Positions 2,967 through 7,571 of a stretch of DNA of 34,433 nucleotides are shown in pieces. Under the pieces are notes generated by a model. It was not told the origin of the DNA and ran no database searches. It was given only the letters and a program-made list of their open reading frames with translations. The first letter of the stretch is position 1, and every line of letters starts with the position of its first letter. Origin of the DNA: Candidatus Gemmiger stercoravium (GTDB taxonomy: Bacteria; Bacillota; Clostridia; Oscillospirales; Ruminococcaceae); the NCBI GenBank assembly GCA_019119835.1, contig DWWE01000002.1, forward strand, positions 1-34,433, written 5' to 3'. A program made the translations under genes and the position numbers.

Positions 2967-4142
2967 GTGGCAAAACGTGTATTCTTGATCGTATTGGACA
3001 GCTTCGGCATCGGCGCCGAGCCGGATGCGGCGCAGTTTGGCGATGCGGGCACCAACACCCTGAAAGCCATCGCCGGGCACCCGAACTTCCGGGGTGAAAA
3101 CCTGGCCCGGCTTGGTTTGTTCCGGATCGACGGCGTCAGCTGCGGCCCCCAAATGCCGGAACCGGTCGGCTGCTATGCCCGCCTGCGGGAAGCCAGCGCC
3201 GGCAAGGACACCACCATCGGCCACTGGGAGATCGCCGGTCTGCTCTCCCCCGAGCCGCTGCCGACCTTCCCGGAAGGGTTCCCCCGGGAACTGCTGGAGG
3301 AATTCACGGCCCAAACCGGTTACGAGGTGCTGTGCAACCGCCCGTATTCCGGCACCCAGGTCCTTCGTGACTATGGCGAGGAGCACCTGCGCACCGGGGC
3401 GCTGATCGTGTACACCTCGGCGGACAGCGTGTTCCAGATCGCGGCCCATGAGGACAAGGTCCCGGTGGAAAAACTGTACAAGATCTGTGAGACCGCCCGC
3501 GCCATGCTCAAGGGCAAATACGGGGTGGGCCGGGTGATCGCCCGCCCCTTTGTCGGCAGCTGCGCGGAGGATTTCCAGCGCACGCCCCGCCGCCATGACT
3601 TCTCCCTGCTGCCGCCGGCGCCCACCATGCTGGATATGCTGCAGGCGGCCGGCAAGGCGACCATCGGCGTCGGCAAGATCCATGACATCTTTGCGGGCCG
3701 CGGCGTGGGCGAGACCATCCGCACCTCCGGCAATACCGAGGGTCTGCGGGTGACGCTGGAACTGGCGGACCGGGATTTTGAAGGACTGGCCTTTGTGAAC
3801 CTTGTGGACTTCGATATGCTGTACGGCCACCGCCGGGATGTGGGCGGGTACGCCGCGGCCGCGGCAGAGTTTGACGCCTGGCTGCCGCAATTTATCGAAA
3901 AAATGCGCCCGGACGATGTGCTGATGGTCACGGCGGACCATGGCTGCGACCCCAGCTACACCAAAACCACCGACCATACCCGCGAATATGTGCCCTACCT
4001 GCTCTATGGCCAGCAACTGAAGCAGGGGATTAACCTTGGCACGCGCTACAGCTTCGGCACCATTGCGGACACCGTCTGCCAGGCGCTGGGAGTTTCGGTG
4101 GATGTGGCCGGCTGCGGGGTCTGGCATGAGATCGCCCGGTGA
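2967..4142 (+). CDS. deoB: Phosphopentomutase
   Basis: The 391-residue product matches DeoB over its whole length. It interconverts ribose-1-phosphate (or deoxyribose-1-phosphate) and the 5-phosphates, linking nucleoside salvage to the pentose phosphate pool. Visible motifs are the metal-binding VLDSFGIGAEPDA (Asp11), the segment GKDTTIGHWEIAG containing the phosphorylated threonine (Thr82 or Thr83), GKIHDIFAGRGVGET, NLVDFDMLYGHRRD, and TADHGCDPSYTKTTDHTRE with further manganese ligands. The start is GTG at 2967 with AAGGAGA seven bases upstream. No other nucleoside-catabolism gene is adjacent; a DUF218 membrane protein follows after 25 bases, probably on the same transcript. Confidence 0.97.
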   Translation: MAKRVFLIVLDSFGIGAEPDAAQFGDAGTNTLKAIAGHPNFRGENLARLGLFRIDGVSCGPQMPEPVGCYARLREASAGKDTTIGHWEIAGLLSPEPLPTFPEGFPRELLEEFTAQTGYEVLCNRPYSGTQVLRDYGEEHLRTGALIVYTSADSVFQIAAHEDKVPVEKLYKICETARAMLKGKYGVGRVIARPFVGSCAEDFQRTPRRHDFSLLPPAPTMLDMLQAAGKATIGVGKIHDIFAGRGVGETIRTSGNTEGLRVTLELADRDFEGLAFVNLVDFDMLYGHRRDVGGYAAAAAEFDAWLPQFIEKMRPDDVLMVTADHGCDPSYTKTTDHTREYVPYLLYGQQLKQGINLGTRYSFGTIADTVCQALGVSVDVAGCGVWHEIAR

Positions 4143-4167
4143 CCCCGCCCATCCGCGGAAAGGAACG

Positions 4168-4986
4168 ATGATACAGATTCTGCTTTATCTGTGGGCCCTG
4201 GTGCTGTCGGCCTACTCGGTGTCGCTGCTGCTCACCAGCAACTTCAATATGGGCAACCTGATGGTCTGGGTCATCACCGCGGCCAGCTGGGTCACGGCGA
4301 TCTGGCATCGGGGGCTGTATGCCTGGGTGCGGGATACCCTGGCAGGGCGCGCTGCCCTTCTTCTCTGTCTGGCGGCGGTGCTGGTGCTGGCCGGCGTGCT
4401 GACCTTCATTTCGGTCAAGGCGTACAGCAACCCGCCCACCGGACAGGAAAAGATCGTCGTGGTGCTGGGGGCGGGGCTGCGGAAGGACCGCCCCAGCAAG
4501 CTGCTGCGCTACCGCCTGGACAAGGCTTATGAATATGCGGTGGCCCACCCGGACACCATCCTGGTCACCGCCGGCGGGCAGGGTCGGGACGAATGGGTGC
4601 CGGAGGGGCAGGCGATGCGGGATTACCTGATCGAAAAGGGCTTGCCGCCCGACCGGGTCTTTGCCGAGACCCGCTCCACCTCCACCGAGGAAAACTTTGC
4701 CTTTGCCAAACAGGTGCTGGAACAAAGCGGCTTCGACCCGGACGGCCCCATCGTGTATGTGACCAATGCTTTCCACTGCTATCGCGCCGGGGAATATGCC
4801 CGGATGGCCGGGTTTGAGGAGGCGCACGCCCTGCCGGCCGGGATCTCGCTGCAGAGCGTACCGACCTGCTATCTGCGGGAGGCCATGGCTGTCTTGTACT
4901 ACTGGGTGTTCCGCTCCTCCCGCAGCGGATTCATGCAGAGCATGGTGGGGCTGTTGAGCCTGAACAAGCGGTTCTTTTATCGCTGA
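4168..4986 (+). CDS. DUF218 (YdcF/SanA/ElyC-like) membrane protein
   Basis: The 272-residue protein has three hydrophobic segments near residues 2-20, 28-46 and 58-80, then a soluble DUF218 domain. That domain starts IVVVLGAGLRKDRPSKLLRY and contains VTAGGQGRDEWVPEGQAM, ETRSTSTEENFAFA and YVTNAFHCYRAGEYARMAG. Members of this family (YdcF, SanA, ElyC) are linked to cell-envelope maintenance and may act on nucleotide or sugar-phosphate substrates; the reaction here is unknown. ATG at 4168 follows AAAGGA and removes a non-homologous extension running back into deoB. It lies 25 bases after deoB, so co-transcription is likely. A strong terminator follows. Confidence 0.85.
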   Translation: MIQILLYLWALVLSAYSVSLLLTSNFNMGNLMVWVITAASWVTAIWHRGLYAWVRDTLAGRAALLLCLAAVLVLAGVLTFISVKAYSNPPTGQEKIVVVLGAGLRKDRPSKLLRYRLDKAYEYAVAHPDTILVTAGGQGRDEWVPEGQAMRDYLIEKGLPPDRVFAETRSTSTEENFAFAKQVLEQSGFDPDGPIVYVTNAFHCYRAGEYARMAGFEEAHALPAGISLQSVPTCYLREAMAVLYYWVFRSSRSGFMQSMVGLLSLNKRFFYR

Positions 4987-5039
4987 TGTCCGGCGGCTCC
5001 CTGTCGGTTTCGGCAGGGGAGACACAGAACGATCCGAAT

Positions 5040-5086
5040 AAAAAAGGCGGTATGCCGTCCGTGACAGGACGGCATACCGCCTTTTT
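5040..5086. terminator. Strong bidirectional terminator
   Basis: A perfect 15-bp stem (GGCGGTATGCCGTCC and its complement) with a 6-nt loop lies at 5046-5081, with AAAAAA before and TTTTT after it. It would end the deoB-DUF218 transcript, and could also stop transcription arriving from the acetyltransferase on the other strand. Confidence 0.92.
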
Positions 5087-5225: not shown

Positions 5226-5672
5226 TTACGGCAAAGTCCGCGACAGTTCGATCTCCTCTTCGTCTTCGGCGCCGGTCGGCACAAAGCCTCTGCTTTTGTA
5301 CAGGCGAAGCGCCCGCCTGTTCTCCCGGTTGCAGGTCAGGGTCACCCGGTCGGAAGCGCCGAAAGGCTTGGTCCGGATATAAGCAAGGACCTGATCCAGC
5401 GCGGCCCGGCCGTAACCCCGGCCCTGTTTCGACACATCGATCATCATGTGCCACAGGTCGTATTCCGGGATGTCGTAGTCGTAGATTACCATGACATAGC
5501 CGACCATGACCTCCTCGTCATAGATCCCGAAAGGCTGGCACTGCTCTCTGTAGACGTAAGCCTGCGCAAGGCTGCGGATCGGGTGGGAAACAAAGCGCTC
5601 CTGCCCGGCGGCCAGCTTCAGCCCGAAGGCGTCGATAAAGTTTTTCTCGGTGATTTTTTCAAGGTGAATCAT
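5226..5672 (-). CDS. GNAT-family N-acetyltransferase (BltD/PaiA-like)
   Basis: The 148-residue protein has a GNAT fold pattern: a strand pair around GIYDEEVMVGYVMVIYDYD, the acetyl-CoA pyrophosphate-binding loop QGRGYGRAAL, and a C-terminal NRRALRLYKSRGFVPTG element. The arrangement resembles polyamine acetyltransferases such as BltD, but the substrate cannot be read from sequence. I chose ATG at 5672 because GGAGG lies five bases upstream; a GTG four codons earlier lacks such a site. The upstream region holds a promoter, a 30-codon ORF and a terminator, so expression may depend on readthrough. Weak inverted repeats lie downstream (5112-5129, 5172-5193), without clear T-runs on this strand. 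Confidence 0.88.
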   Translation of the reverse strand: MIHLEKITEKNFIDAFGLKLAAGQERFVSHPIRSLAQAYVYREQCQPFGIYDEEVMVGYVMVIYDYDIPEYDLWHMMIDVSKQGRGYGRAALDQVLAYIRTKPFGASDRVTLTCNRENRRALRLYKSRGFVPTGAEDEEEIELSRTLP

Positions 5673-5748
5673 ATAGACCTCCACAAAATGTTCTGACTTC
5701 TTGGCGTGCGTGTCTTGGCGAACATCCTGTCGGGGGCAAAAGGCGCAG

Positions 5749-5776
5749 AAAAAAGCCGCGGCAGATCAGCCGCGGC
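5749..5776 (-). terminator. Terminator/attenuator overlapping the end of a small ORF
   Basis: On the minus strand GCCGCGGC-TGATCT-GCCGCGGC is followed by six T residues (5754-5749). The first arm (5776-5769) is the last codons of the 30-codon ORF, and the ORF's TGA stop sits in the loop. A ribosome finishing that ORF would cover the first arm. It lies 77 bases upstream of the acetyltransferase start, so it may be an attenuator rather than a plain terminator; that role is inference. Confidence 0.85.
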
Positions 5777-5858
5777 GCAAACGACTCGAAAGGTCAATTC
5801 TGCTGCCAGGGCCCTCATTATGATATTCAGCCATCCGGTTTATGCTGTCCTTTCTCAT
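5766..5858 (-). CDS. Small ORF, 30 codons, candidate leader peptide
   Basis: ATG at 5858 and TGA at 5768-5766 bound a 30-codon frame beginning MRKDSINRMAEYHNEG and ending SSRLRRG. A GGGGTG lies six bases upstream of the start as a possible ribosome binding site, and a strong promoter places the transcript start about 30 bases before the ATG. The peptide is charged and polar, with no hydrophobic segment. I do not recognise it. The terminator folds over its final codons and the acetyltransferase gene follows, the typical build of a leader peptide gene. It could instead be an independent small protein with its own terminator, or chance. Confidence 0.5.
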   Translation of the reverse strand: MRKDSINRMAEYHNEGPGSRIDLSSRLRRG

Positions 5859-5896
5859 AATGAACACCCCGCTTTCTGTGTTGGATTGCACTTGCT

Positions 5897-5925
5897 ATGA
5901 TACCATGGATCTGCGGCCCGGTCAA
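5897..5925 (-). promoter_or_regulatory. Promoter ahead of the small ORF and acetyltransferase
   Basis: On the minus strand TTGACC (5925-5920) and TATCAT (5902-5897) are separated by 17 bp, each with five of six consensus bases. No other good promoter is seen closer to the acetyltransferase, so this is the likely start for the whole leader plus gene. Confidence 0.75.
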
Positions 5926-6117: not shown

Positions 6118-6265
6118 GAGGTTCGGGAAAAAACTTCTACAGCGCCCGAAAAGGCGCAGACCATGCCAAAGGACGCGGCGCAGGAACCGACATAAAGATA
6201 TAGCGAACAAATATTGCTAATAAAAGAGATGATAAAAAGGGAAAAATATTTTTATGAAATAAATA
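6118..6265. other. AT-rich intergenic region without a gene
   Basis: Between the tRNA-Ala promoter and the next operon's promoter lies an A/T-rich stretch with runs such as AAATATTTTTATG and no coding frame with a start and ribosome binding site. I see nothing specific beyond the composition, which contrasts with the GC-rich surroundings. Confidence 0.5.
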
Positions 6266-6295
6266 TTGCACTCGGCGTATAAAATCGTATATAAT
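6266..6295 (+). promoter_or_regulatory. Promoter of the DUF6514-like/Spo0A-like/ATPase operon
   Basis: TTGCAC (6266-6271) and a perfect TATAAT (6290-6295) are 18 bp apart. It leaves an untranslated leader of about 165 bases (6303-6469) before the first gene; I recognise no riboswitch in that leader. Confidence 0.65.
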
Positions 6296-6469
6296 GGAAA
6301 TGCTCCCAGGCATTGATTTTTACAAACAAAATCATGTATATTGATTCCGGACAGAAAAGTAACCGGCCGTCCTTTATCAAATGTGCAGAATCCCGAAAAG
6401 CCGCATTCCCTGTCATCTGCGGCATCCCGGCGGCGGGCAACTTATCTTGAAATGGAGAGAGCAAGGAAG

Positions 6470-6782: not shown

Positions 6783-7571
6783 ATGTGGAATGGAATGTCA
6801 ATGTTTTCAACAGCGTCAACAGGTGAAAGCGTGACCATGTTGTTCGCGGATGAAAGCCTGAACCTGTGCAGGACCCTGCAGTCGTATACCTCCTGCCAGG
6901 GGGATGTGCATCTCATCGGCTTTGCCACCAGCGGGGAGGAACTGCTTGATCTGATCCGGCACGGTCTTCGGGCGGATGTGGTGGTCCTGGATTCACTGCT
7001 GCCGGGGCTTTCGCTGCCGGAATTCTTCCAGGTGATGGCCGCGGTGGATTATCACCCCGGCGTGATCCTGACCGGGATGCCCTACGCGCAGAAAATAGCG
7101 GACAAATTCTTGACATTGGGCGTCAACTATATTATGGTTAAACCGTACACCCTGTCGGACCTGATGGAAGCCGTCTATCGGCAGGCTACGGATCCGCGCC
7201 GGCTGGCGGCCTACGCAGTCAGCCGCTGCTGTGAGGATTTTCTTTCGGAGATGAGGTGCAACCGTCGGTTGGGCGGGTGGTTTTACCTGGAAAGGATCCT
7301 GCGGCACACCGTCCTCGATGACAAGGACTACATCGCCAAGGAGCTGTATCTGCTGGCGGCCGGGGACCAGCCGGTCAGCATCGGCAGCGTCACCGCTTCG
7401 GTGCAGCGCGCCAATGATTCGCTGCGCACCGCCAACTCGAAAGGGTACGACGAACTCTGCCGTGCGGCGGGCAAACCGGCAGGCGCCCGCCTGTCCAACC
7501 TGGAGCTGATCCGGGTCTTGACCGAAAAAATCCGCCGGTCCGGCGTTGTCAGGCCGACCTGCAGGGGATAA
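6783..7571 (+). CDS. Spo0A-like response regulator
   Basis: This protein of up to 262 residues has an N-terminal receiver domain with all core residues: acidic pair Asp23-Glu24, phosphoacceptor Asp70 in VVVLDSLLPG, Thr97 in ILTGMP, and Lys120 in MVKPY. Its C-terminal part (about residues 150-255) follows the pattern of the Spo0A DNA-binding domain, including WFYLERILRHTV, a recognition-helix region VTASVQRANDSLRTAN, and a closing LSNLELIRVLTEKI. The recognition helix departs clearly from classical Spo0A (SRVERAIRHAI), so it may not read standard 0A boxes. The start is uncertain: ATGs at 6783, 6795 and 6801 and a GTG at 6831 are all possible, and family alignment favours a late one. The next gene encodes a kinase-like ATPase. 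Confidence 0.8.
   Translation: MWNGMSMFSTASTGESVTMLFADESLNLCRTLQSYTSCQGDVHLIGFATSGEELLDLIRHGLRADVVVLDSLLPGLSLPEFFQVMAAVDYHPGVILTGMPYAQKIADKFLTLGVNYIMVKPYTLSDLMEAVYRQATDPRRLAAYAVSRCCEDFLSEMRCNRRLGGWFYLERILRHTVLDDKDYIAKELYLLAAGDQPVSIGSVTASVQRANDSLRTANSKGYDELCRAAGKPAGARLSNLELIRVLTEKIRRSGVVRPTCRG

Follow-up and report, generated by a model that had tools for sequence, protein, structure and literature searches.

Introduction

In the vmlR leader of Bacillus subtilis, as outlined in the excerpt of the report cited here, a ribosome stalled on an upstream open reading frame (uORF) breaks an anti-antiterminator, and an antiterminator then replaces the intrinsic terminator; another hairpin hides part of the ribosome-binding site of the target gene until it is disrupted by alternative pairing in read-through transcripts (PMC9226507). 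The authors of that report state that the antiterminator, being located upstream, can form first (PMC9226507). The cplR leader of Clostridioides difficile combines transcription and translation attenuation through a uORF and is reported to sense retapamulin and lincomycin (PMC10201436; also PMC12121999), and in these accounts both the vmlR and the cplR leaders precede antibiotic-resistance genes. At the toiL-topAI locus of Escherichia coli, tetracycline or retapamulin stalls ribosomes at the uORF start codon, which frees a downstream ribosome-binding site (PMC12121999), and the uORFC-6-1 motif, located ahead of hflX in Bacillales, is a covarying uORF leader (PMC8632094). All comparisons with these four systems apply to the excerpts of the cited reports.

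The window analysed here is a stretch of 34,433 nucleotides from Candidatus Gemmiger stercoravium (contig DWWE01000002.1), in which a leader with a short ORF and an intrinsic terminator precedes a GNAT acetyltransferase gene. By analogy, this leader is best read as a translation-sensing attenuator of the same design as those of vmlR and cplR. The roles recognized in vmlR (anti-antiterminator, antiterminator, terminator, and masked ribosome-binding site) would be the same in the present leader (PMC9226507); the match in design is one of roles. The vmlR target is an ABCF resistance factor and its uORF has 3 codons (MIN), whereas the present uORF has about 20 codons, and 30 in the window (PMC9226507). 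Because the present uORF overlaps the switching strand, completed translation would also switch the system off, unlike in vmlR. The cplR leader resembles the present one in being clostridial and in combining transcription and translation attenuation via a uORF, but differs, as far as it is described there, in its uORF (Met-Arg-Ile), in a terminator hairpin that itself masks the ribosome-binding site, and in its ABCF target (PMC10201436). The toiL leader shares the sensing of start-codon-stalled ribosomes by a uORF and the freeing of a downstream site, but its termination is Rho-dependent and occurs inside the gene, and stalling further along toiL also works (PMC12121999). The uORFC-6-1 motif offers a parallel in that the gene behind it encodes a factor that acts on stalled ribosomes, the counterpart here being RsgA in many relatives, but it is reported from other bacteria, with Arg-Leu-Arg conserved in the peptide and an RNA structure that lies entirely past the uORF start codon (PMC8632094). 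No description of the present leader family was found in searches of an open-licence library, a scope outside which most subscription papers lie.

Organization of the leader locus

The promoter, short ORF, intrinsic terminator, and GNAT gene are all located on the minus strand (Table 1). Their arrangement is that given in an earlier note on this DNA, which had described a promoter, a 30-codon ORF, a GC hairpin with six T, and an acetyltransferase gene 77 bases on. The ATG of GNAT lies 77 bases past the T6 tail.

Table 1. Features of the GNAT leader locus in the window
Feature	Position	Strand	Remarks
Sigma-70 type promoter, TTGACC-17-TATCAT	5897..5925	-	10/12 matches; TG ahead of the -10
Probable transcript start	near 5890	-	
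Leader ORF, 30 codons plus TGA: MRKDSINRMAEYHNEGPGSRIDLSSRLRRG	5766..5858	-	ATG at 5858, stop at 5768-5766
Segment A, Shine-Dalgarno and start region of the leader ORF: GCGGGGTGTTCATT	5859..5872	-	Pairs with B (anti-antiterminator)
Segment B, switching strand: GCTGAATATCATAATGAGGGCCCTGGC	5805..5831	-	Can pair with A, the terminator 5' arm, or D
Intrinsic terminator hairpin, 8 bp, all GC, loop of 6	5755..5776	-	ORF stop codon inside the loop
T6 tail of the terminator	5749..5754	-	
Segment D, post-terminator strand: CCTTTTGCCCCCGACAGGATGTTCGC	5718..5743	-	Pairs with B; may mask the Shine-Dalgarno of GNAT
Segment E, Shine-Dalgarno and start of GNAT: TTTGTGGAGGTCTATATG	5670..5687	-	
GNAT acetyltransferase, 148 aa	5226..5672	-	ATG at 5672; Pfam Acetyltransf_1, E = 2e-13

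The reading frame of the GNAT gene in the window is intact. The closest solved relatives of its product by sequence are spermine/spermidine acetyltransferases (PDB 2fl4, E = 5.4e-12; 9dsb, E = 5.7e-12), in agreement with the resemblance to polyamine acetyltransferases suggested earlier, and the only NCBIfam matches were to rimI, all of them sub-threshold. From its likeness to these solved members, the protein was classified as polyamine-type, with a polyamine as its putative substrate. A second GNAT gene, 43% identical to the first, is present in the same genome (G000:C116:503-961, L012), and a search of this genome with the leader model found no second copy of the leader.

Between positions 5000 and 6500, 4 promoter-like sites were counted against 0.9 (sd 1.0) in shuffled sequences, and 4 terminator-like sites against 2.3 (sd 1.8), so that the pattern alone places the promoter and terminator pieces just modestly over chance. 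With pattern counts near chance, it is the conservation in relatives described below that identifies the leader as a real feature. No promoter-like site was reported on the minus strand between the hairpin and the GNAT gene. A tRNA-Ala(CGC) gene (6070-5995) with its own terminator-like site (5982-5966) is located upstream of the leader. At the other end of the locus, a long hairpin at about 5046-5082 (GGCGGTATGCCGTCC...GGACGGCATACCGCC, then TTTTT) between the GNAT gene and a convergent gene (4036-4986) is likely a terminator. For positions 6200-6340 and 6783-7571 of the window, it was noted that AT-rich sequence lies ahead of two genes, the second of which resembles a Spo0A-type response regulator by eye.

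Conservation and distribution of the leader

GNAT relatives (408) were collected from named genomes, and the best 80 were retained for the leader search. Of these 80, 43 have a homologous leader (E < 1e-10) no further than 420 nt from the start of GNAT, which supports the central proposal of the earlier note, a translation-controlled attenuator ahead of the GNAT gene. The remaining 37 have no such leader, three of them with a short upstream sequence (L078, 40 nt; L121, 163 nt; L117, 188 nt). The carriers among the 80 include Oscillospiraceae, Lachnospiraceae, Peptoniphilaceae, and, in one row, Eubacteriaceae; Gemmiger formicilis, Negativibacillus massiliensis, and Butyrivibrio proteoclasticus are carriers available in culture. 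Within the genus of the window, the GNAT gene was found in 7 of 35 genomes (E <= 1e-20; own genome included); the leader occurs in 5 of the 35, and each of these five also has the GNAT gene. In the GNAT tree, where most forks have weak support, the leader is clustered without forming one clade (15 changes versus 27.2 in shuffles, 0 of 500 as low), and a group of 21 rows (support 89/85) is entirely without it. In genome G005, the GNAT gene has no such leader; a different short ORF, MMNYIRKTQHTQGNVIN, is located just upstream of GNAT (1501) at this locus (L011), where GGGGAA and TTCCC strands beside the GNAT start perhaps form an unrelated small translation attenuator.

A promoter with at least 9 of 12 matches is present ahead of 35 of 43 leaders, the window included, against 4.2 expected from shuffles; this count covers leaders with sufficient upstream sequence, L057 having been omitted as too short, and six rows gave nothing. 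The family promoter is often a perfect TTGACA-17-TATAAT, mostly at a constant distance. In the family consensus (alignment A3), the order is AGAAAGCGAGGTGCTCAATTATG, a short A-rich coding stretch, TCTGAATATCTTTTGAGGACCTCGGTTGCA, and the stop codon, followed by the terminator GCCGTGG...CCACGGC with its T-run; next come a strand centred around GTTCTTCATAGATGTTCATACAAGA and, where GNAT starts, TTTATGGAGGAATTTATG. The alignment used below contains 37 of 44 leaders (window included), from which L056, L068, L073, L088, and L099 (near copies), L064, and L090 were omitted. The nhmmer seed consisted of 41 of the 44 leader rows, among them the window, and the nhmmer scores of the 44 are therefore not independent.

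At the gathering score, Rfam matched three tRNAs only in the window and nothing in its leader, and L043, L044, L048, and L093 gave five matches, each below the gathering score, three of which touch the leader region. Plasmids and phages searched with the leader DNA of L048 gave no match, and the 28 matches of a GNAT pattern search of viral contigs included no relative of the window GNAT.

The leader ORF

In 36 of the 37 aligned rows, the leader ORF is 19-23 codons long, L048 being an example with the standard 20 codons; the window is the exception, with 30. Its sequence carries one additional base after GAATATC, which causes a +1 frame shift, as a result of which the ORF, homologous to about codon 12 (AEY) and shifted thereafter relative to the 19-23 codon homologues, continues into the terminator. 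The overlap of the ORF end with the hairpin and the position of the stop codon in its loop, both pointed out previously, are thus true of the window copy, and a stop inside the hairpin occurs in the window alone among the 37 aligned rows. In all measured rows (n = 36) but the window, the stop codon is located 11-28 nt ahead of the terminator arm (none was found for L055, and the figure for L103, measured to a look-alike before the true terminator, is too small). L090, outside the 37-row alignment, also has a 30-codon ORF, but its stop codon lies before its terminator. In L115, one base has been lost in the same stretch as the insertion of the window, and its C-terminal codons are frame-shifted.

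Every aligned row has the ATG of the leader ORF. Frame 0 contains no stop ahead of B in any of the 37 rows, and each of the other frames contains stops in 35 of 37. By the alignment, the conserved Glu-Tyr codons follow the ATG at a distance of 30 nt in 36 rows and of 27 nt, one codon less, in the other. The leader thus appears to possess a translatable short ORF near the transcript 5' end, as do vmlR/cplR-type attenuators. The codons themselves show no corresponding constraint: pN/pS was 0.68 at codons 2-9 (other frames 1.09 and 0.73) and 0.84 at codons 10-17 (other frames 0.80 and 0.59; 26 rows in each case), with no synonymous excess in either part, and a comparison of the 30-residue peptide with 40 relatives gave chance matches only (best other E = 0.40). 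The codon-level conservation and the shared peptide that the earlier note had asked for were accordingly not found. The synonymous and non-synonymous changes carry no sign of protein-level selection, whereas the pairings described below do show selection; the peptide has no convincing match in the 40 relatives, and the kinship of the leaders is visible at the DNA level. Judged from the aligned sequences, conservation of the leader is at the RNA level and not that of the peptide.

These data bear on the mechanism first suggested, in which the 30 residues form an arrest peptide sensing a small molecule, perhaps a polyamine, and a ribosome halted on the stop codon directly prevents the terminator hairpin, as in TnaC or SpeFL. 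The stop codon in the terminator loop of the window and the polyamine-type target speak for it, and a ribosome at the stop codon of the window would indeed sit on the hairpin, so that this route is possible for the window copy. In the homologues, however, the stop codon precedes the terminator arm; an arrest peptide would be expected to show a conserved C-terminus at or near the stop, and here both the window and L115 have shifted out of frame over their C-terminal codons, while the window retains its RNA pairings. There is, as noted, no synonymous excess, and a ribosome from codon 12 onward produces no antitermination via B in the models below. For the family, the arrest-peptide reading was rejected on the ORF ends and the codon test, and overall it is highly improbable. 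An attenuator ahead of the GNAT gene is thus supported, and its proposed operation by stop-codon arrest is not.

Competing pairings and covariation

Covariation was assessed by comparing the pairing energy of true partners with that of partners swapped between genomes (37 rows, 2000 shuffles) and with a thinned set (27 rows, <85% identity); as the aligned sequences are related, these shuffle comparisons are not independent trials. The energy of A:B was -16.97 for own and -14.49 kcal/mol for swapped partners (z = -8.1, 0/2000; thinned -6.5), and that of B:D -19.41 versus -17.53 (z = -5.4, 0/2000; thinned -5.2), the values in the window being -17.4 and -17.6, respectively. The terminator also covaries (z = -5.3; thinned -4.4; -20.1 in the window). 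Covariation of B:C is weak (z = -2.9, 8/2000 as low; thinned -2.4), and D:E, with an energy of about -10 kcal/mol (-9.7 in the window), shows none among the GNAT-type rows (z = -0.7; thinned 0.4). Among the pairs intended as controls, A:D, A:C, and B:E gave z-values of -1.0, 0.3, and 0.4, respectively, and C:E an unexpected -3.7 (thinned -2.4). Segment B (codons 10-17) therefore covaries both with the ribosome-binding site of the leader itself (A) and with the post-terminator strand (D).

In a fixed-structure count of A:B plus the terminator (alignment A4, 34 rows), 97.2% of the cells are paired, with 7 double-change pairs versus 3.9 in shuffles (1/500 as high) and a covariation score of 0.299 versus 0.210 (0/500); because this structure was itself derived as the RNAalifold consensus of the alignment, the slid controls are tilted in its favour. 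The A:B helix would place an anti-antiterminator pairing at the uORF start region, as in leaders of the vmlR/cplR type. In the RsgA-type rows described below (n = 14), the D pattern is present in 9, and GGTCTCCATA occurs together with ATGGAGA in 3.

Conservation mainly at the nucleotide level and covarying A:B and B:D helices are also what a ribosome-independent RNA element would display, i.e. a riboswitch, protein-binding site, or stability element in which the ORF is incidental. The invariant ATG, the single open frame, and the near-constant ATG-to-Glu-Tyr distance argue against such an element, and no compact conserved ligand-binding fold was seen in the Rfam search; we regard this explanation as very unlikely.

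Folding models with a ribosome on the leader

The ribosome was modelled as 31 nt kept unpaired and was stepped along the ORF. Antitermination was scored in modelled transcripts ending ahead of the terminator 3' arm, as the fraction of the 5' arm held by B. The mean of this fraction was 0.14 without a ribosome and 0.77, 0.77, 0.75, 0.62, and 0.42 with the P-site at codons 1-5, fell to about 0.15 at codons 6-8, showed a bump of 0.49 at codon 10, and was 0.00-0.03 from codon 12. B:C pairing was higher with an early ribosome (codon 3) than without one in all 37 modelled rows. In real leaders, the terminator arm was paired at 0.56 without and 0.81 with an early ribosome, against 0.64 and 0.61 in shuffled leaders, a control that counts pairing to anything upstream and is only partly comparable with the B-specific and real-leader figures.

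In full transcripts, passing from no ribosome to one at codon 1 raised the mean fraction of D held by B from 0.12 to 0.62 and lowered that of E held by D from 0.51 to 0.18, and the modelled opening of the GNAT ribosome-binding site was small (mean 0.29 to 0.42). Equilibrium folds of whole leaders were rejected as evidence for a switch, because they are dominated by the terminator (mean pairing 0.94 with an early ribosome and 0.99 without; 0.68 and 0.97 in the window) and the switch is not visible in them, which counts against the model. As the terminator wins at equilibrium, the modelled read-through would depend on the order of folding.

In the window, the 5' arm held by B was 0.44 without a ribosome and 0.85, 0.80, 0.66, and 0.34 at codons 1-4, and the opening of the GNAT site drops from 0.37 to about 0.24 at codons 1-4, with no increase until codon 5 (0.51); in these models, the window copy would be a poorer switch than the family mean. 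The window copy may therefore be decaying or misassembled, a 1-nt indel having lengthened its ORF and impaired its switch, which would be compatible with the family mechanism. The +1 insertion after GAATATC and the stop inside the terminator, found in the window only, point in this direction, as do the GNAT site that stays unopened at codons 1-4 and the division of the genome into 120 contigs. The A:B, B:D, and terminator pairings have nevertheless been retained at the energies given above, the GNAT frame is intact, and L115 shows that other leaders, too, have indels in this stretch; on balance we consider decay or misassembly rather doubtful.

The positions that are active in the models, codons 1-4 and partly 5, overlap those at which Asn and Arg are frequent (Asn at codon 3 in 18/26 rows and at codon 4 in 13/26, Arg at codon 5 in 19/26). 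The same RNA switch might thus respond to a shortage of charged tRNA in a trp-like manner, with hungry Asn or Arg codons holding the ribosome. Codons 3-5 of the window, however, specify Lys, Asp, and Ser, no gene for Asn or Arg biosynthesis is present among the identified targets, and the A-rich codons may simply keep the loop unstructured, so that this signal appears unlikely.

Proposed mechanism

By computation, the leader is conserved, A:B, B:D, and the terminator covary, the reading frame is open, and the active ribosome positions have been modelled. On these grounds, the GNAT leader is probably a ribosome-sensing attenuator with competing strands, triggered by an early-stalled ribosome. 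This assessment applies to the logic of the family; confidence is lower for the copy in the window because of its frame shift and its weaker modelled switch.

The leader promoter would produce the transcript constantly, and we infer termination and read-through, as well as the role of D:E, to proceed as follows. With no ribosome on the leader ORF, A would pair with B, the terminator would form, and D would mask E, leaving GNAT off. During normal translation, the ribosome would traverse B, so that neither the terminator arm nor D would be held by B, and GNAT would again be off. A ribosome held at the start codon or within the first four or so codons would cover A and leave B free; B would first compete for the terminator 5' arm, allowing read-through, and in the longer transcript would then pair with D, by which E would be exposed and GNAT turned on. 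As the on-state needs a ribosome at early codons, the signal would be slow or blocked early elongation, and the most likely inducers would be translation inhibitors that trap ribosomes at start codons, with target functions possibly related to such inhibition.

Other genes downstream of the leader

Covariance models also place the leader before genes for RsgA GTPases, GNAT-RsgA proteins, ABC exporters, and other genes. HflX and RsgA are both GTPases. At order level, the GNAT-leader model matched 10 of 394 genomes, and at class level 13 of 391 (E <= 1e-3; own genome in both); three of the former and five of the latter look by eye like bare terminators or chance. Model R1 was made exclusively from GNAT-type rows, and its recovery of RsgA-type leaders (best E = 4.5e-15) constitutes independent evidence. 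A second covariance model matched 32 of 397 genomes of one family (f52) and, in the phylum, 2 of 299, one being that of the window (E <= 1e-5). The covariance searches yielded 53 distinct places, of which 8 were dropped and 4 had no locus, leaving 41 loci, window included; L130-L132 and L140-L144 were dropped as bare terminators or chance by eye.

Homology searches placed RsgA behind the leader in 19 of these 41 loci (on its own in 11, after a GNAT domain in 7, and after RNHCP in 1). A polyamine-type GNAT follows in 9 loci and another GNAT in 1 (L128); ABC exporters account for 4 loci and an alpha/beta-hydrolase-like protein for 1, and the remaining 7 have no gene of these types. Pfam confirmed RsgA in 9/9 proteins tested where it was expected, the GNAT part in L138, RNHCP in L149, and ABC domains in L166 and L170; the GNAT part of the other GNAT-RsgA loci shares 63-75% identity with that of L138, the Pfam cut-off of 1e-8 being too strict for them. 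The GNAT domain is located directly ahead of RsgA, behind the same kind of leader, in L138, L151, L155, L157, L159, L162, and L165, and in five of these (L138, L151, L157, L162, and L165) both parts form a single open frame of 449-485 aa. Two RsgA genes are present in 9 of 10 leader-bearing genomes tested, one of the two being at the leader; the tenth (G1094) has a GNAT-type leader and a single RsgA. Leaders ahead of the ABC genes are weak profile matches (E = 0.0012 to 2.6e-6), with L139 hardly matching at all, and could be a separate group.

It is possible, and we propose it tentatively, that one family of attenuators, undescribed in the literature searched, runs a translation-stress response in gut Clostridia, comprising polyamine-type acetyltransferases, second-copy RsgA, GNAT-RsgA proteins, the RNHCP-RsgA pair, and ABC exporters. 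The conserved leader flags the polyamine-type acetyltransferases, the second RsgA, and GNAT-RsgA as candidate genes by which common gut bacteria could protect themselves inducibly from translation inhibitors. If this proposal is true, the leader targets would be unrecognised inducible factors guarding or mending inhibited ribosomes, or disarming the inhibitor.

Some loci carry the leader ahead of what look like broken genes. In L134, counted above among the polyamine-type loci, the GNAT gene is in two pieces, and in L147 (about 1700-1800) only a remnant of GNAT is present before another gene. In L148, the leader precedes a transposase-like ORF (by eye), with no GNAT or RsgA gene, which hints at a mobile region.
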